A DNA stretch of 34,961 nucleotides from a virus: IMG/VR virus record IMGVR_UViG_3300008448_000318, positions 1 through 34,961 of that record; one strand, given 5' to 3'. This document shows, piece by piece, positions 1 through 34,961 of this stretch (positions within the stretch are counted from its first letter, which is position 1; every line of letters starts with the position of its first letter). The position numbers were made by a program, and so were the translations under genes. A model generated the notes under the pieces. That model had not been told where the DNA came from and did not search any database. It worked only from the letters and a program-made list of their open reading frames with translations.

Positions 1-52
1 CTCTTCCTTTGGAATCTCGATTCGCTCAATCTCTACCTTCTTGATCTTGCGT
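1..52. repeat. Left copy of imperfect terminal overlap (circle junction)
   Basis: Matches 34910-34961 at 48 of 52 positions in the same orientation. Read on the minus strand, both copies encode the same 17 residues, and all four differences fall at third codon positions. It is best explained as an untrimmed assembly overlap of a circular or circularly permuted genome sampled from a mixed population. Confidence 0.9.
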
Positions 53-933
53 TCTCCATAGCCTTCCTTGTACAACTCTCTAGCAGCTTCAGAGTAATTT
101 CCACTAAAGAACTTCCATGCGTAGATAGCAAATGGGCTAAGCGGTGTCTCATGCGGGTAGATAGTTGCAGTAGTAAACAGGTAGCATAGACCTGTGTCCT
201 TGTAGATAAATCCATGCAGTGCATCCTTGCTTTCTACCTTGCGTAGAACTATACGATCAGATAGGTGTTTAATGGCACTAAATTCGCCTTGTAAGAGGTC
301 CAATGCCTTGTTCCTATGGTTATAGTCATCCCAAGGTGTTAGACCGCTGTAATCGGCCTCTTTTGGCCTCGTTTCATCTACCCTCTCTTCATAGTGAAAA
401 TACTTACATAGATTCATTAACAGATCACGCTCTTCTGGGGTAATCTCCTGAATCTGCTCATAAGACAATTCGCTTACCTGATTATCGTAGATGTAGATGT
501 ATCCACCTGAACCTCTAGTCTCAATCAGAGCCTGAGAATGTCCCTTGAGCGTAGCAAGCTTTCTGTTGCCTTCAACCTTAGAACATCTGTAGATGATGTG
601 GTAGCCTGAGTTGATGGTTTTGTAGATTACGAACTTTCTAGCGAAGTCATCTATGTAATCTGAAACGAATGCGATAAACTCATTCCAAAATTTCTTACCC
701 TCTTGTACACTAGGGAATACTTTTAGGTCTATGTCTATACATTCAGTACCATAAAATCCTGTAATAATACCATAACCTTTAGTTTTAGACTCTAGCCTTT
801 CTAGTTCGGCTTTTTCTATCTTTTTAGTCTGGTATTCCTTCCATAAAATCAGTGGTTTTTTGCCTTCTGATATAGGCATGACGCTGAAGCCAGCGTTCAA
901 TAAATTAATTGCTCTTCCTAAAGTGACGTTCAT
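1..933 (-). CDS. Primase-polymerase/helicase, N-terminal part (continues at 34961)
   Basis: This is the first 311 codons of a replication protein that runs off the window start and continues, through a 52-base overlap, into the frame at 33635-34961. The N-terminal half is an archaeo-eukaryotic-type primase-polymerase (bifunctional prim-pol family). It shows the GKKPLILW entry motif (about residues 24-31), the catalytic DID (67-69), SGYH (109-112) and ETRGSGGY (138-145). It would make primers, and possibly short extensions, for phage replication. The chosen ATG is at 931-933, just downstream of a cluster of palindromic repeats. Residues 150-311 link to the helicase part and end in KIKKVEIERIEIPKEE, the same peptide that opens the other fragment. 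Family assignment is firm; exact biochemical activity is inferred. Confidence 0.9.
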   Translation of the reverse strand, partial: MNVTLGRAINLLNAGFSVMPISEGKKPLILWKEYQTKKIEKAELERLESKTKGYGIITGFYGTECIDIDLKVFPSVQEGKKFWNEFIAFVSDYIDDFARKFVIYKTINSGYHIIYRCSKVEGNRKLATLKGHSQALIETRGSGGYIYIYDNQVSELSYEQIQEITPEERDLLMNLCKYFHYEERVDETRPKEADYSGLTPWDDYNHRNKALDLLQGEFSAIKHLSDRIVLRKVESKDALHGFIYKDTGLCYLFTTATIYPHETPLSPFAIYAWKFFSGNYSEAARELYKEGYGERKIKKVEIERIEIPKEE

Positions 934-978
934 TGCGTTTTACAAGTGTTTGTAGAAAATGGGCTATTTTTGGCAAAA

Positions 979-1251
979 AGTGTACACTAAGTTTACACTA
1001 AGTTTACACTAGAGTGTAAACCCCTAAAACCCCTTATACTCTCTAATTTGGCCGATTTTTGGCACTTTTTTGGCTTAGGTTTACAAGTTTACACTTTTTT
1101 TGTTAAAGTGTTTTTTTTTACCACCTGAAAATTTATTTTTTTTCATTTTTCCCAAAAAGTGTTCAAAGTGTTCACTTATTGCGATTGGAGCCAATGGAGG
1201 CCGATTTTGGTTTACACTTAGGTGTACACTTAGTGTACACTTGTGTACACC
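979..1251. repeat. Cluster of ~10 palindrome-type 10-bp iterons
   Basis: Copies or close variants of AGTGTACACT / AGTTTACACT lie at 979-988, 990-999, 1001-1010, 1013-1021 (inverted), 1086-1095, 1158-1166 (partial), 1167-1176, 1209-1218, 1221-1230, 1232-1241 and 1242-1251. The tight groups are spaced 10-12 bp, about one helical turn. AGTGTACACT is a perfect palindrome. The block fills the gap of about 300 bp between the triple-HTH gene and the primase gene; the last copies lie in the 3' end of the HTH gene. The gap also holds A/T tracts and two copies of GGCCGATTTT-like sequence near 1050 and 1200. It is likely a replication origin and/or an operator array controlling the primase. The binding protein is not shown by sequence alone. 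Confidence 0.8.
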
Positions 1252-1685
1252 CCTGTTCGGATCTTGCGAACCCAGTATTGGACCTGTCCATAGGGTATGT
1301 CTAGCTTGTAAGAAATGTTAGCTATTTTATACCCATCTTCCCATAATCGTTGCACTTCTCTAAGATTTTTTATGGTTATTCCTTGTCTTCTGCGGTAGGT
1401 AGTCAACTTAATGATCTCACAGATTTGGTGATGTGATAGTCCAGTGCGTTCTGTGATCTGCTTGTAGGGGTAATCGTTCTTGTACATTTCAATGACCTCA
1501 TCAGCTAGTTTAAGATGCGCTCCGTTATTCTTAGCACGCTCATTGGTCTTTAGATATTCCTTGTAGAGAAAGTTGTTTACCACATGGAATGATACTCCTA
1601 GAAACCTAGCAATGTTCTTGTTCTTTATTTTAAGCTTGTAAAGTCTGATGACTTCGTCTTTCTGTTCCTGTGTTAGTGATGTCAT
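1230..1685 (-). CDS. Triple helix-turn-helix DNA-binding protein
   Basis: A 151-aa protein built from three consecutive homeodomain/resolvase-like helix-turn-helix units. The first covers about residues 3-40 (LTQEQKDEVIRLYK, then IARFLGVSFHVVNNFL), the second about 58-92 (ADEVIEMYK, then ITERTGLSHHQICEII) and the third about 103-143 (LREVQRLWEDG, then ISYKLDIPYGQVQYWV). No catalytic domain is visible. The ATG at 1683-1685 follows the upstream stop by one base; a TTG at 1712 in the same frame would overlap the upstream gene and is less likely. The gene lies directly beside the palindromic repeat cluster, and its last codons are made of that repeat. It is therefore the obvious candidate to bind those repeats as an initiator or regulator, which is inference. 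Confidence 0.75.
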   Translation of the reverse strand: MTSLTQEQKDEVIRLYKLKIKNKNIARFLGVSFHVVNNFLYKEYLKTNERAKNNGAHLKLADEVIEMYKNDYPYKQITERTGLSHHQICEIIKLTTYRRRQGITIKNLREVQRLWEDGYKIANISYKLDIPYGQVQYWVRKIRTGVYTSVH

Positions 1686-1686
1686 G

Positions 1687-1938
1687 TTAGTAGTTATAGT
1701 TGCAGTAGTCAAGGATATTTGTTAAAATGCGTTCTAATTCATTACCATTAATAGGTACTGAATCATATTCTACCTTATAGCTTACTATTTGGTCGAATCT
1801 CCTATTGTTTTTTACCACCAGGGCCTCGATGTACCAGTAGCTATCGTAGAAAGCAAACTGATAGATTTCATCCTTGATGTGGGTTACTGAAAGGTCTAAG
1901 CTACCTAGATGCTCTTCTTCTAATTCAATAAAGTTCAT
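1687..1938 (-). CDS. Hypothetical protein, 83 aa
   Basis: I do not recognise this protein. It is acidic at the N terminus (MNFIELEEEHLGSLDLS) and rich in aromatic residues (a YDSYWYIEALV segment; the C terminus ends in YCNYNY). No membrane segment or known motif is visible. It starts inside the stop of the preceding gene (ATGA overlap at 1935-1938) and ends one base before the HTH gene, so it belongs to the leftward recombination/replication operon. The tight coupling and lack of a better frame make it a real gene; its function is unknown. Confidence 0.7.
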   Translation of the reverse strand: MNFIELEEEHLGSLDLSVTHIKDEIYQFAFYDSYWYIEALVVKNNRRFDQIVSYKVEYDSVPINGNELERILTNILDYCNYNY

Positions 1939-2138
1939 AGTTCTTCTTCTCTAGTGTTTACAAATTTTTTATTGTTTAAATCTTCTTCCTCCTTCGTGGA
2001 TATGAACATATCGCAGTATTCATATTGGTAAGGGGTCTCAATAAAGTAAAACTGGTAGTAATTCGGAATAGCCGTATATCTGTAGCATTTGCTCCTGATG
2101 GGGCAATCTATGCCCTCGCACATGGTTATATCGCTCAT
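1935..2138 (-). CDS. Small Cys-containing protein, 67 aa
   Basis: The N terminus carries CEGIDCPIRSKCYRYTA, three cysteines spaced C-x4-C-x5-C. A fourth cysteine follows near residue 42 (YEYCDMF), making a plausible metal site. The C terminus is charged (KEEEDLN...NTREEEL). Proteins of this pattern are seen in Bacteroidota phages, from memory and without a database check, with no assigned function. It overlaps the exonuclease gene stop by 4 bases (ATGA) and the next gene in the same way, so translation is probably coupled along the operon. Confidence 0.7.
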   Translation of the reverse strand: MSDITMCEGIDCPIRSKCYRYTAIPNYYQFYFIETPYQYEYCDMFISTKEEEDLNNKKFVNTREEEL

Positions 2139-2734
2139 GATAGTAGTTCTTTAACATAGTCCCTACACTCTTTAATCCTAGCCTTAGCTGTCTCAATTAC
2201 CATAGGGTCATATTCTATTTCAAATTCTTTTACTCTATAGCTGTTATCTACATGAGCGTAGCTCACAGGCTCCTCATGGGTCAGGTAGTCAGGGGTATCC
2301 TGAAGCGTGTACACTAGCTTAGCCTTTCTAAGCCCTGTCAGGTGCATATACACCTGGAGCTGATAGTAGTATCCCATGTCAGGCTCCTGATCGAACAGAG
2401 GGAATGTAAAGCAGTCCCAGGAGGTCTTGAAGTCATAGACTATACCCTCGTGCATACAGTCAGGCGTACCTGTGAAGAAATCATCCTCAAAGTGGTCTAG
2501 GTTCTTAATCATGAAGTCCTTATCCATAGCAACAGAATAGAACTCTATAGCCTGATCCTCGAGGGCTAAACCTTTCTGCAAGTACTTAGAATTAATCTGC
2601 TTCTTGATTCCATAAATCTGCTCTTTTACCCACTCTTCTAGGTAGCTCTTTGTAGTGTGGGATAAAGTCTCAGACTTAGACCTTGGGTTAGTCATTAACT
2701 TACCCAAGGCACTTGCTCTGCATTTAAAGTTCAT
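2135..2734 (-). CDS. YqaJ-like PD-(D/E)XK exonuclease
   Basis: A 199-aa nuclease of the lambda-exo/YqaJ viral recombinase type. The N terminus has the RASALGKLMTNPRSK motif. The middle has the QKGLALEDQAIEFY helix, whose Glu is typical of the family. The catalytic core reads TGTPDCMHEGIVYDFKTSWD (Asp...Asp-Phe-Lys, about residues 89-108), followed by YYYQLQVYMHLTG, the conserved Q-x-x-x-Y. It would resect double-stranded ends to give single strands for the ERF-type annealing protein encoded immediately upstream (ATGA overlap at 2731-2734). Together they form a RecET-like recombination pair. Family confidence is high; end polarity is not deduced. Confidence 0.87.
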   Translation of the reverse strand: MNFKCRASALGKLMTNPRSKSETLSHTTKSYLEEWVKEQIYGIKKQINSKYLQKGLALEDQAIEFYSVAMDKDFMIKNLDHFEDDFFTGTPDCMHEGIVYDFKTSWDCFTFPLFDQEPDMGYYYQLQVYMHLTGLRKAKLVYTLQDTPDYLTHEEPVSYAHVDNSYRVKEFEIEYDPMVIETAKARIKECRDYVKELLS

Positions 2735-3264
2735 CCTAGTAGAAGTTTTTCGTTCTCAGCAGTCAGGATATAGACAGCCTTAATCTGTTCTATAGTTACT
2801 TTTCCACTAGCTAGGGAATCCTTGGCTCCTTGCCACTTAGGATGCTTTGGACTAAGCTCCTCCTTTTTTGCACCATGGTCATTGGTACTATCAGGGTCTT
2901 TGGTATCATCTATGAGAAATAAACCATTGAGCGCATACTTTCGAGAATATGAGCTGCTGCTCCCGAACGACTGCGCTATGTCCATGCCCTTGCGGTTGAC
3001 ATCTATCCCTGCTTGAGCTGTTACCGCTCTGCCTTCTGTTCTACCTTCTTTATCAACCTGGATAGCAGCGGTAGATTCAATAAATACTATACCACCTACT
3101 TCTTTAACCTCATCCTCTATGGTCAATGTACATTCGTACTTTAACAGCAGGGGCTTTAAAGCCTCTAGGATGTCCTCGCAAGATCGGTACTTGTACTTCC
3201 CGAATGCGTTAAACTGATTTTTTGGAGCCTTTAGCTCCGCCTGGATTGCAATTAGTTCTTTCAT
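2731..3264 (-). CDS. ERF-family single-strand annealing protein
   Basis: A 177-aa protein with the ERF signature: KNQFNAFGKYKYRSCEDI (about residues 15-32), a central beta region (CTLTIEDEVKEVGGIVFIES), and the conserved GMDIAQSFGSSSSYSRKYAL segment (about 93-112) followed by NGLFLIDDTKDPD. ERF proteins anneal complementary single strands in phage recombination and end repair. The C terminus (about 130-177) is a variable Lys-rich tail. The partner exonuclease gene overlaps its stop. The start ATG at 3262-3264 is preceded by a T/G-rich stretch with no Shine-Dalgarno. Confidence 0.88.
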   Translation of the reverse strand: MKELIAIQAELKAPKNQFNAFGKYKYRSCEDILEALKPLLLKYECTLTIEDEVKEVGGIVFIESTAAIQVDKEGRTEGRAVTAQAGIDVNRKGMDIAQSFGSSSSYSRKYALNGLFLIDDTKDPDSTNDHGAKKEELSPKHPKWQGAKDSLASGKVTIEQIKAVYILTAENEKLLLG

Positions 3265-3337
3265 GTGTTTGTGTGTTTGTTTTAATTAAGTAAAGTTCTC
3301 CAATTAATTGATCTAATTTTTTTACTAGGTCGTCCAT
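3209..3337 (-). CDS. Possible small ORF, 42 aa
   Basis: The ATG at 3335-3337 opens a frame starting MDDLVKKLDQLIGELYLIK, an amphipathic helix. It then becomes Lys/Gly/Ser-rich and overlaps the ERF start by 56 bases. It spans the otherwise empty gap between the ERF and membrane-protein genes. The long overlap and low-complexity tail make it uncertain; it could act as a leader for ERF translation. Confidence 0.3.
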   Translation of the reverse strand: MDDLVKKLDQLIGELYLIKTNTQTHERTNCNPGGAKGSKKSV

Positions 3338-3492
3338 GTGATTAAGTAAATTAAATTAATGAGTATTAGAATTGTCGATGCTATGAGAAAGTCAACTATG
3401 AAGTATTTTTCACTATGCTTTTTCACTATACCTATGCCTAGAGCTATCAGGACTGATAATATCATGAAGCAGGCAACATAGACAAAGGTCAT
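3325..3492 (-). CDS. Small membrane protein, 55 aa
   Basis: Two hydrophobic segments, VYVACFMILSVLIALGIGIV (about residues 4-23) and VDFLIASTILILINLIYLI (about 33-51), are joined by a charged KKHSEKY loop, so two transmembrane helices are predicted. I chose the ATG at 3490-3492 because it overlaps the stop of the upstream 47-aa gene as ATGA. A longer frame could start at 3531 (MVCQVCNSK), but this would lie inside that neighbour. No family recognised; it could be an early membrane or host-takeover peptide. Confidence 0.6.
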   Translation of the reverse strand: MTFVYVACFMILSVLIALGIGIVKKHSEKYFIVDFLIASTILILINLIYLITWTT

Positions 3493-3632
3493 GGCTTGTG
3501 ATGTTTTAGAATTGCAGACTTGGCATACCATAGTCCGTACTTATCCCATAGAAGCTCGAAGGTAGTAGCTATCGCTATTCTCTTCTCTAGAGGTATTTCC
3601 CCGTAGTGCTTGGTGATAAACTCATCTACCAT
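3489..3632 (-). CDS. Small hypothetical protein, 47 aa
   Basis: The ATG at 3630-3632 opens a 47-codon frame beginning MVDEFITKHYGEIPLEKRIA and continuing through FELLWDKYGLWY. It overlaps the stop of the HTH-like gene upstream by 11 bases, and its own stop overlaps the membrane-protein start as ATGA. The composition is balanced, with regular amphipathic helices, as in a folded small protein. No family recognised. Confidence 0.55.
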   Translation of the reverse strand: MVDEFITKHYGEIPLEKRIAIATTFELLWDKYGLWYAKSAILKHHKP

Positions 3633-3807
3633 CTTTAATCCAATTAGGGTCTACAAATACTACCCATTGATTGCCTATCTTCTTAGGAGGATGGGTCCAC
3701 TCAGCAGGGAATTTACCAGACCTGATGATCTGATGCACTCGAGTTGATTTTTCACTATAGCCCTTTAGTACACCGTACTCTTGGGCTGACATCATTTCAT
3801 AAAACAT
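3622..3807 (-). CDS. Excisionase/MerR-like small DNA-binding protein, 61 aa
   Basis: The sequence SAQEYGVLKGYSEKSTRVHQ, then IIRSGKFPAEW and KKIGNQWVVFVD, follows the pattern of small winged-helix excisionase/MerR-type domains (entry helix, recognition helix after GYS, then a wing leading to a strand). Without an integrase in the genome, a role in excision is unlikely, so it is more probably a transcription regulator of the early arm. It overlaps the upstream gene by 16 bases. Start alternatives are the Met residues at positions 1, 5 and 6. Confidence 0.6.
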   Translation of the reverse strand: MFYEMMSAQEYGVLKGYSEKSTRVHQIIRSGKFPAEWTHPPKKIGNQWVVFVDPNWIKDGR

Positions 3808-4031
3808 TTCTTAACCTCCTGTTCTAATTGTTCAACAATAAATGGATCTAGCACCGAGCAGATAGTCCTGTAGTGGTCTGAGAATTTCTCCGTCAGGTCA
3901 TCGTAGATGTCCAAGGTCAGGGACTTTCCCCCACCGAAATAGAGTTCCAAGGATATGCCCTGGTTCTCGAATGATTCCAGCTCGAGGGTCAACCCTGACT
4001 GGTCTAAGCAGTAATAATGGTCTTTTAACAT
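3792..4031 (-). CDS. Hypothetical protein, 79 aa
   Basis: First gene of the leftward operon that starts downstream of the DnaA-box-like repeat block. The acidic protein alternates beta-prone stretches (LTLELESFENQGISLELYFG, KSLTLDIYDDL) with a C-terminal helix (VEQLEQEVKKCFMK). No family recognised. Upstream on the minus strand at about 4045-4085 is a TTTGCA ... TAGACTTTTG arrangement that loosely matches a Bacteroidota promoter. Confidence 0.6.
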   Translation of the reverse strand: MLKDHYYCLDQSGLTLELESFENQGISLELYFGGGKSLTLDIYDDLTEKFSDHYRTICSVLDPFIVEQLEQEVKKCFMK

Positions 4032-4099
4032 GATTAAAGTGTTTAGTGATAAGCGAAATTACAAAAGTCTATATTCAATGCAAATAAATAATTAGTTTT

Positions 4100-4280
4100 T
4101 TTTCCACTATGGTGATTTTTTTTTCCACTATGGGGGACAAGTCCAACATTTTATTTTCCACTAGGGTCTTATTTAGAATCATTCTGTTTTACACTATGGG
4201 TTTTGTTTTCCACTATGGGTCAAACCGCCATGTTTTCCACTAGGCCATGTTTTCCACTACCCTATGTTTTCCACTATGGG
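4100..4280 (+). repeat. Eight direct DnaA-box-like repeats (TTTTCCACTATGGG)
   Basis: Copies, all in the same orientation, begin at 4100, 4121, 4154, 4187 (TTTTACACTATGGG), 4206, 4233, 4250 and 4267. The core TTTTCCACT matches 8 of 9 positions of the relaxed DnaA box TTWTNCACA, and the ATGGG extension is kept in most copies. They lie in a gene-free 457-bp gap. AT-rich sequence (4032-4100) flanks one side as a possible unwinding element, and a GC-rich island (4285-4400) the other. This is the best origin-of-replication candidate in the window. Whether host DnaA or a phage protein binds is unknown. Confidence 0.75.
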
Positions 4281-4456
4281 CATGGGTACGCGGTCGCGCT
4301 TGGGCGCGGTTGGGCGCGTCACGGCATGGCATGGCAAGGCTAGACCTAGCAAGGCAACACGGGCTATTTTTAAGCCCGTAGCGGGACGATATTTTTATTT
4401 TGGTATACTTACATAGGCAAAGTATTTTGAGGTCTTAAAATGGCTTAAAATGGCTT
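4281..4456. other. GC-rich, gene-free stretch with hairpin and short tandem repeats
   Basis: The stretch has unusually high GC for this genome. TTGGGCGCG is repeated at 4300-4308 and 4310-4318, and GGCATGGCATGGCAAGGC starts at 4323. A 7-bp-stem hairpin (ACGGGCT / AGCCCGT) lies at 4359-4379, and CTTAAAATGG is tandemly repeated at 4434-4453. No credible ORF. It is part of the putative origin region. Confidence 0.6.
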
Positions 4457-4482
4457 AAAAAAAAAGCCCTATATTCTAGGGC
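4457..4482 (-). terminator. Intrinsic terminator after the 4489-4674 gene
   Basis: On the minus strand GCCCTA-GAATA-TAGGGC forms a hairpin followed by nine T. It ends the first leftward unit before the repeat block, insulating the putative origin from transcription. Confidence 0.75.
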
Positions 4483-4488
4483 CTTGGT

Positions 4489-4674
4489 TTAACTTTGAAA
4501 TTTTGTATTTAATACTTGCCAAACGCAAGTAACAAATTCATTTGAGCTTCTGGCATAATTGGAATTAACGCAATTATTTAAAATTGCCTTATATACACTT
4601 GAGTACTTTGGGCCGTAAATTTCAATCATTTGATCTACAAATTTTGCCGCGGCTTGGTAGGTTTTATTTTCCAT
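4489..4674 (-). CDS. Hypothetical protein, 61 aa
   Basis: Predicted mostly helical (YQAAAKFVDQMIEIYG, SSVYKAILNNCVN), with two cysteines and no recognised motif. It lies between a gene 4 bp upstream and an intrinsic terminator just downstream, so it is the last gene of a short leftward operon. It is real by context and balanced composition; function unknown. Confidence 0.6.
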   Translation of the reverse strand: MENKTYQAAAKFVDQMIEIYGPKYSSVYKAILNNCVNSNYARSSNEFVTCVWQVLNTKFQS

Positions 4675-33417: not shown

Positions 33418-33638
33418 CAGAAGGGAAGGTCAAAGTGTTGCAAATGCTTCCAAGGTTCTTTGTAGTCGCTACCGAACTGACATAGGTATTGAAATGCCAA
33501 TATCCTGTTTGCTTCTCTCATCTTTACCCAATAAACTTCTGTAGTAAATTGGTCATAGATACCTGGGTATAAGTCCATAAACTTCGCCCAGAATACTTCA
33601 AATGGGATTTCCGTAATCTCGTCTAGTGCTTCAATCAT
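33417..33638 (-). CDS. Hypothetical protein downstream of helicase, 73 aa
   Basis: MIEALDEITEIPFEVFWAKF, then YDQFTTEVYWVKMREANRIL and FGSDYKEPWKHLQHFDLPF. Predicted helical with many aromatic residues, no motif recognised. It starts in the helicase stop (ATGA) and shares one base with the nuclease start. Constant linkage to the helicase suggests a replication role. The end also reads D-L-P-F, like the 31638-31952 protein. Confidence 0.6.
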   Translation of the reverse strand: MIEALDEITEIPFEVFWAKFMDLYPGIYDQFTTEVYWVKMREANRILAFQYLCQFGSDYKEPWKHLQHFDLPF

Positions 33639-34961
33639 TTTTTCAAGTGTTTATATATCGTTGTTCTACTAACATTCAGTATCTCCGCAAGTTCTGACCT
33701 GTTAAAGTCAGGGATAGCTTCCTGAATCTGCTGTATCTTTCTTTCAATCGACTCATTCTTTAATGAGCGAACCAACTCATTTAGCTCGGAGCTTTCCAAT
33801 GAGTTTACCTTAATCTTTTTAGACATGGCAATGAAGTAGTTACTCAACTTCTCTGCTTTCAGGAGGCTATCCTTACTTACCCAATCAAAACCGCTAGAAT
33901 TATTGTAAGCAGTAATTGAGTTGATAATCAGAGCGAACCTTGGGATGTAAGCCTTCTGCTTACTCAACATACTCTTGACATACTCAGAAATATCATCTGA
34001 GTTCTGCATATCTGTAATGTTGTTGAATATCCGCTCCCATTCCTGTTCTGCTTCCGTATCAAATCGTATCACTCTAGGCTCAATCTCACCGAATTTATTA
34101 AACTGCAAGACTTCTTTTCTTATCAGGTTATAGAACTGCGACATATAAGCCTCGTACCAATCCAATACTTCCTGATCTATGGCATTCCTGTTGTAATGCT
34201 CAATGTCCTTATCAGGATAGCAGACAAGCAACCTATCTAGGAATCCATTGTCCTTGTTCTCCAAGGTAGAAATCTGCGAGAATATGCCAGGCTGTATGCC
34301 TCCTAGAACAGGAATTAAAGGCGATTGAATAAAGCTACTCTTTGCAGTCTTTCGAGTCATGATAGCCTCTTGATTCGACCAACAGGACAGCCAAAATTCT
34401 AGGTCAGAACCAGGTTTATACTTGTTCATGTCCTTAATCCATCCGTTTAGCTCATCCTTAAATACTGCAATGCCTACTGCGTTCTCTTCATGTAAATCCG
34501 CCAATGCCTCCACAGTTACATCGTTGACAATAATCTGCTTTCTAACAGGCTCTTTAACCTCCTCCACATCTTTCTTATCCTTTGTAGAAAGCTTTTCATA
34601 TTCCTTGTACTTCTTGTACTCGTTCTGATAGTGCTTAATCTCAAAACTATTCTTTTTAGCCAATGGGAATATGACCGCATTTATACTAGGGGTCTTACCC
34701 AGACCTGCCTTGCCAATCAATCCTAGCCAAATGTTTACCGACTCTCTCCATCCTGTCTTGACCTGAACCTTGCAGCTGTTACCAATACATATAGAAATGT
34801 ACCAAAGTAAGGAGCAACCCATATAGTCAATAGAATGATTCAAGGTTTTCTGATTCAACAGAATATAATTTTGTAATGTCTCAGGGAACACTTCTAGCGG
34901 AAATATCAGCTCTTCCTTGGGAATCTCGATACGCTCAATCTCAACCTTCTTAATCTTGCGT
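33635..34961 (-). CDS. Primase-polymerase/helicase, C-terminal part (continues from 1)
   Basis: The open frame enters from the window end and continues the gene at 1-933. The core is a DUF3987-type helicase: WLGLIGKAGLGKTPSINAVI (P-loop GKAGLGKT, about residues 377-384 of the joined protein), GIAVFKDELNGWIKDMNKY (acidic Walker B-like region), then SPLIPVLGGIQPG. The last 25 residues hold a helix-turn-helix (FNRSELAEILNVSRTTIYKH). Joined length is about 735 aa, as usual for prim-pol/helicase fusions. It would load on the origin, unwind and prime. A frame start at 34891 is an internal GTG, not a real start. Confidence 0.9.
   Translation of the reverse strand, partial: RKIKKVEIERIEIPKEELIFPLEVFPETLQNYILLNQKTLNHSIDYMGCSLLWYISICIGNSCKVQVKTGWRESVNIWLGLIGKAGLGKTPSINAVIFPLAKKNSFEIKHYQNEYKKYKEYEKLSTKDKKDVEEVKEPVRKQIIVNDVTVEALADLHEENAVGIAVFKDELNGWIKDMNKYKPGSDLEFWLSCWSNQEAIMTRKTAKSSFIQSPLIPVLGGIQPGIFSQISTLENKDNGFLDRLLVCYPDKDIEHYNRNAIDQEVLDWYEAYMSQFYNLIRKEVLQFNKFGEIEPRVIRFDTEAEQEWERIFNNITDMQNSDDISEYVKSMLSKQKAYIPRFALIINSITAYNNSSGFDWVSKDSLLKAEKLSNYFIAMSKKIKVNSLESSELNELVRSLKNESIERKIQQIQEAIPDFNRSELAEILNVSRTTIYKHLKK
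34910..34961. repeat. Right copy of imperfect terminal overlap
   Basis: Same 52-base segment as 1-52. On the minus strand the codon pairs that differ are ATT/ATC, GTT/GTA, CGT/CGA and CCC/CCA (right/left copy); the encoded peptide is unchanged. Confidence 0.9.

Follow-up and report, generated by a model that had tools for sequence, protein, structure and literature searches.

Short direct repeats in gene-free DNA may serve a replication initiator or a transcriptional regulator, and the locus described here raises the question of which protein reads them. The window, the whole stretch of DNA analysed, is a virus record of 34,961 bases from an uncultured Bacteroidota-type phage family. Leftward genes occupy the part from 6.4 kb down to 30.4 kb, by way of the window ends; rightward structural genes take up the remainder. 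An initial annotation of the repeats had proposed a replication origin, which would recruit host DnaA through a modified box or bind a phage initiator at a 14-bp site.

Eight boxes in one orientation precede a recombination operon

The repeats, here termed array A, comprise eight boxes, all on the + strand, starting at 4100, 4121, 4154, 4187, 4206, 4233, 4250 and 4267. The array and its flanks are as follows:

4032..4099, − strand: leader, 78% AT, separating the 79-aa gene p79 from the first box (composition, alignment)
4100..4280, + strand: array A, direct-repeat boxes TTTT[C/A]CACTA; the box at 4187 is TTTTACACTA, the other seven are TTTTCCACTA
4281..4400, unstranded: GC-rich (58%) flank of array A (composition)
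4463..4485, − strand: intrinsic terminator-like hairpin with a T-tract (four such in the region versus 0.9 expected)

All eight coordinates and the shared direction given in the initial annotation were correct, and the contrast in composition between the two sides was borne out. So was the absence of genes: the block 4032-4488, between the leftward ORFs at 3792-4031 and 4489-4674, holds no ORF of at least 60 aa. Exact TTTTCCACTA occurs eight times in the whole window, while 0.10 copies are expected from dinucleotide shuffles; seven of these lie within 4100-4276 and the eighth at 2800, inside the ERF gene. As had been stated, the nine-base core departs from the relaxed DnaA box TTWTNCACA at its last base alone. 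The claimed 14-bp site with a shared ATGGG did not hold up. The 14-mer is exact at three boxes only (4121, 4206 and 4267), with one mismatch at 4100 and 4187, two at 4154, three at 4233 and more than three at 4250, and relatives keep only the 10 bp TTTT[C/A]CACTA, without ATGGG.

The leader contains a promoter-like block, TTGCA...TTGTA, which the alignment shows to be kept in most relatives; matches to the sigma-70 consensus in 4032-4099 did not exceed chance. Judged by its sequence, the hairpin at 4463-4485 would halt leftward transcription short of array A. The leftward genes that follow the array are:

3792..4031, − strand: p79, 79 aa, at the head of the leftward operon (model with a weak likeness to the PUR/Whirly fold)
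3622..3807, − strand: hth61, 61-aa winged helix-turn-helix (HTH) protein with a predicted Xis/BldC-like fold, candidate binder of array A
3325..3531, − strand: 68-aa protein with hydrophobic segments, p79 operon
2731..3264, − strand: ERF single-strand annealing protein, p79 operon (contains the stray TTTTCCACTA)
2135..2734, − strand: exonuclease (phrog_5715), p79 operon
1230..1712, − strand: hth160, with repeated HTH motifs
1..933, − strand: Prim-Pol (PF09250)/DUF3987 helicase/C-terminal HTH, N-terminal part (start codon at 933)
33635..34961, − strand: remainder of the Prim-Pol/DUF3987/HTH gene, joining 1..933 across the window ends

Because the Prim-Pol gene, whose product has 735 aa in the relative L088, spans the window ends, the genome is circular or circularly permuted. 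Positions 1-52 and 34910-34961 form an imperfect 52-bp direct repeat within this gene, which fits such a genome. Among annotated phages, no DNA match to the window and no homologue of hth61 or p79 was found; the sole gene that Riemerella phages have in common with the window phage is ERF.

Array A is conserved in the phage family

A three-box scan of IMG/VR returned 108 stretches. Together with the window these were sorted into 65 arrays and 44 coding repeats with 41/31 spacing. Eight of the 65 arrays, found in unrelated phages or in other sequences, were excluded; the family then counted 56 loci apart from the window. Once relatives of the downstream HTH gene had been included, p79 was present at 121 loci. 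In related phages, where the initial annotation had called for a search, array A was present 5' of p79, and thus of early genes, in all 49 non-redundant relatives, with 4–22 boxes each and usually 72–92 nt from the p79 start codon. The boxes in these 49 relatives all lie on the + strand with one exception on the − strand, the single orientation that characterizes Xis/Cox/BldC arrays. The absence from close relatives that would have told against the initial proposal was thus not observed. What stood of the proposed origin array is a conserved, phage-specific array of several copies in one direction, of protein-binding type, 5' of early genes; host DnaA and the 14-bp site were not supported, and the origin role is doubtful.

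The main box types in the family are TTTTCCACTA and TTTTACACTA, while ATTTCCACTA, TTTTCGTCTA, TTTTATACTA and TTTTACTCTA are rarer. Spacings in the non-redundant set are 17, 19, 27, 29, 31, 33 and 39 bp. Up to 33 bp they are odd in 53 spacer clusters and even in six, the clusters being not fully independent of one another. In many relatives (e.g., L010, L094 and L021), although not in the window, palindromes of the GAACYGGTTC type (e.g., GAACCGGTTCGAACCGGTTA) lie in or beside the array; these are possibly sites of another regulator.

Two groups from the scan proved to be different things. The 44 loci with 41/31 spacing lie mostly within an ORF of ~370 aa, on the opposite strand. The repeats of L039, L051 and L106, often 23 bp apart, have the core GAGCTTTTCCACTACAGGGG in common and belong to unrelated phages, near a putative structural gene.

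A second array beside the Prim-Pol gene is the better origin candidate

A further cluster of boxes lies directly 5' of the Prim-Pol/DUF3987 helicase gene:

about 969..1254, unstranded: array B, GTKTACAC(T) boxes in both orientations, candidate replication origin (box clusters flank an AT-rich core)

Its boxes start at 980, 991, 1002, 1087, 1210, 1222, 1233 and 1243 on the + strand and at 987, 1021, 1229, 1240 and 1250 on the − strand; the core, 1095-1165, is 79% AT. Array B thus presents two iteron sets around an AT-rich region by a primase-helicase gene. The same arrangement is found in PICI origins and with the primase-helicases P4 alpha and PICI pri-rep, which carry a C-terminal HTH (PMC6092414; domain prediction, PMC5862659), and origin recognition has been proposed for the winged-helix domains at the C-termini of these primases (PMC5862659). 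The likeness is to array B, not to array A, and the window encodes an AEP-type Prim-Pol with DUF3987. Unlike P4 and the PICIs, moreover, the window phage family is not a satellite and has its own terminase and portal.

Conservation of array B is far above that of array A. Distant phages with Prim-Pol homologues (62–70% identity) have neither p79 nor array A, and carry other boxes just 5' of the Prim-Pol gene: TTTTACAC in L265, GTTTACAC in L318, and TTTTGCA in L266, L321 and L334. The candidate origin box varies along with the Prim-Pol protein in distant relatives. A genome-wide scan for 8-mer clusters in six genomes found exactly two, A and B, in family genomes; in distant phages it found the Prim-Pol-adjacent cluster, plus one unrelated extra repeat in G001. 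In three of these distant phages (G001–G003) the Prim-Pol gene and its adjacent array are kept and array A is absent, so that it is not array A that accompanies the initiator gene. Since the cognate array stays by Prim-Pol in distant phages that lack array A, array B appears from its sequence context to be a better candidate for the replication origin than array A. GC skew, which had been suggested as a check, follows gene direction and therefore cannot decide where the origin lies. DUF3987 helicases of "unknown function" are widespread in mobile elements, and a mapped origin for one of them would thus help to assign their role.

hth61 is the favoured reader of array A

The best explanation, which we rate at about an even chance, is that array A is a cooperative direct-repeat operator array of hth61 over the early recombination operon; the binder, its cooperativity and the effect on transcription are all putative. 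Copies of hth61 would load on TTTT[C/A]CACTA boxes in a single orientation and would cooperate along the array, beside the promoter region of the operon. The operon p79-hth61-(68 aa)-ERF-exonuclease would thereby be switched steeply, probably by autoregulation.

The hth61 gene lies two genes downstream of array A in the leftward operon. Array A, hth61 and p79 occur together in 92 out of 92 covered segments, and boxes lie upstream at 228/228 hth61 loci (redundant fetches). The AlphaFold model of hth61 (pLDDT 82.7) matches BldC–DNA structures (6ama/6amk) with Z 5.3 and lambda Xis–DNA structures (1rh6/2og0/2ief) with Z 4.7–4.8 and an rmsd of ~1.9 over 45 residues; Pukovnik Xis and the phage P2 DNA-binding protein 4lhf were matched as well. 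These predicted structural matches are weak (Z ~5), and at the sequence level no homologue of hth61 was found, nor any homology to BldC.

The core of hth61, E19-G31, is invariant. Where hth61 reads RGFTEKSTRV, 70% of the boxes are TTTTACACTA, versus 1% at loci where it reads RGFSEKSTRV, and the C-terminal HTH of Prim-Pol is identical in sequence in the two groups. Box type thus tracks the hth61 allele with the Prim-Pol HTH unchanged, which points to hth61, not Prim-Pol, as the reader of array A. Both the co-occurrence and this correlation fall within one lineage or a few lineages, however, and may reflect common descent. G003 encodes a distant hth61-like protein (32% identity) but has no such array, and a search seeded with that protein returned itself alone. 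The 13–22 boxes of some loci are also many for an operator, which counts against this reading. Given the few lineages and the case of G003, we therefore retain, next to the operator, an auxiliary and an origin role for array A, both weighed below.

For a phage family known here from metagenomes only, the analysis yields a pair of cis elements that can be put to the test, one an operator-like array and its candidate binder, the other a putative origin and its candidate initiator.

Array A compared with known systems

Several small DNA-binding proteins offer parallels to hth61 and array A. Apl of coliphage 186, like phage Xis/Cox proteins, is a small winged-HTH protein with direct repeats in one orientation by early promoters; seven such operators lie between the early promoters of phage 186, and binding is highly cooperative (PMC7498355). 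The sites of Apl and Xis/Cox are 10–11 bp apart and number 5–7, while those of array A are 17–39 bp apart and number 4–22. Proteins of the Apl type also serve an integrase, whereas the window proteins that were scanned include no recognisable one. BldC of Streptomyces, whose DNA complexes the hth61 model matches, binds variable numbers of AT-rich direct repeats head-to-tail in one direction (PMC5859096), but its repeats measure 9 bp. The 9–11 bp, or one helical turn, that separates known RDF and BldC sites is thus not the spacing of array A, and hth61 binding is putative. This one-way array with odd spacing lends itself well to the question of how so small a winged-HTH protein can read direct repeats that stand apart from one another.

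Improbable, and offered tentatively, is the broader proposal that array A is a new control element: long, fast-evolving, strictly one-way and odd-spaced, with a 61-aa winged-HTH reader that works without an integrase, and linking recombination early in infection with a Prim-Pol origin that lies apart, ~3 kb away.

Alternative roles for array A

The most probable of the alternatives, although still an improbable one, is that array B is the origin and array A a further set of sites read by the Prim-Pol/DUF3987/HTH protein; array A would then aid initiation, or titrate and handcuff the initiator. The crr of satellite phage P4 is a precedent for a second initiator array, and two iteron arrays also share one replicon, as A and B do here, in P1 (oriR/incA) and F (ori2/incC). 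The incA and incC repeats share their sequence with the origin iterons, whereas A and B differ: within one genome the two consensus sequences consistently diverge at positions 1–4, TTTT versus GTKT. The array A core TTT[C/A]CACT does resemble GTTTACACT of array B and the L265 origin box TTTTACAC, A and B are ~3 kb apart and are the sole two such clusters per complete family genome, and a known case is that of P4 alpha and its cognate sites (PMC6092414). Yet relatives with a Prim-Pol of 62–68% identity carry the Prim-Pol-adjacent array only, and box type shifts where the Prim-Pol HTH does not. It is unlikely that replication starts at array A itself, with a phage initiator (Prim-Pol, or hth61 or p79 as origin-binding factors) opening the DNA and the AT-rich segment 4032-4099 as the unwinding element. 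The iteron-like copies of array A are intergenic, have an AT-rich segment on one side and stand at the head of a recombination operon, and the model of p79 bears a weak likeness to nucleic-acid-binding folds of the PUR/Whirly kind; but array B has the better origin anatomy and stays by Prim-Pol in distant phages, and the AT-rich segment of array A looks like a conserved promoter or leader.

Array A might also act as structured RNA or single-stranded DNA with hairpins between linkers, which we regard as the least probable of all. A number of spacers form short, perfect inverted repeats, in slight excess over shuffles, and the mean fold z is −1.5 on the − strand of 49 relatives; in the window, by contrast, fold z is ~0 on both strands, and in many cases the spacer is too short to form a stem. 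Binding of host DnaA through a modified box is very unlikely. The core TTTTCCACT is one base off TTWTNCACA, and in several Bacteroidota the recognition motif of DnaA is KDHATV, where E. coli DnaA has DHTT, so host specificity may differ. However, 98% of the boxes carry T at position 9, contrary to a DnaA box; TTWTNCACA is absent from array A and, in each of the six genomes tested, rarer than expected; and the DnaA core is disrupted in the degenerate boxes TTTTCGTCTA and TTTTATACTA. Moreover, a scan of ~85,000 genomes yielded only 17 stretches with three tandem boxes, and those examined were not origin-like.

A host oriC with the same box was sought among these stretches and rejected. The chromosomal TTTTCCACTA triplets of L118 and L126 lie in the near-palindrome TTTCCACTATANTGGAAA, that of L118 being 5' of an ATPase-like ORF, and the triplet of L116 lies at the end of a large ORF. 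Bacteroidota oriC boxes were also looked for near dnaA and were not located. Several of the Bacteroidota genomes L399–L406 encode a DnaA whose domain IV has the motif KDHATV or RDHST, and seven out of these eight genomes lack tandem TTWTCCACA pairs. In the Flavobacteriia genomes, the near-palindrome is repeated in tandem with a period of ~32 bp (L118:1330-1430 and L126:900-1020).
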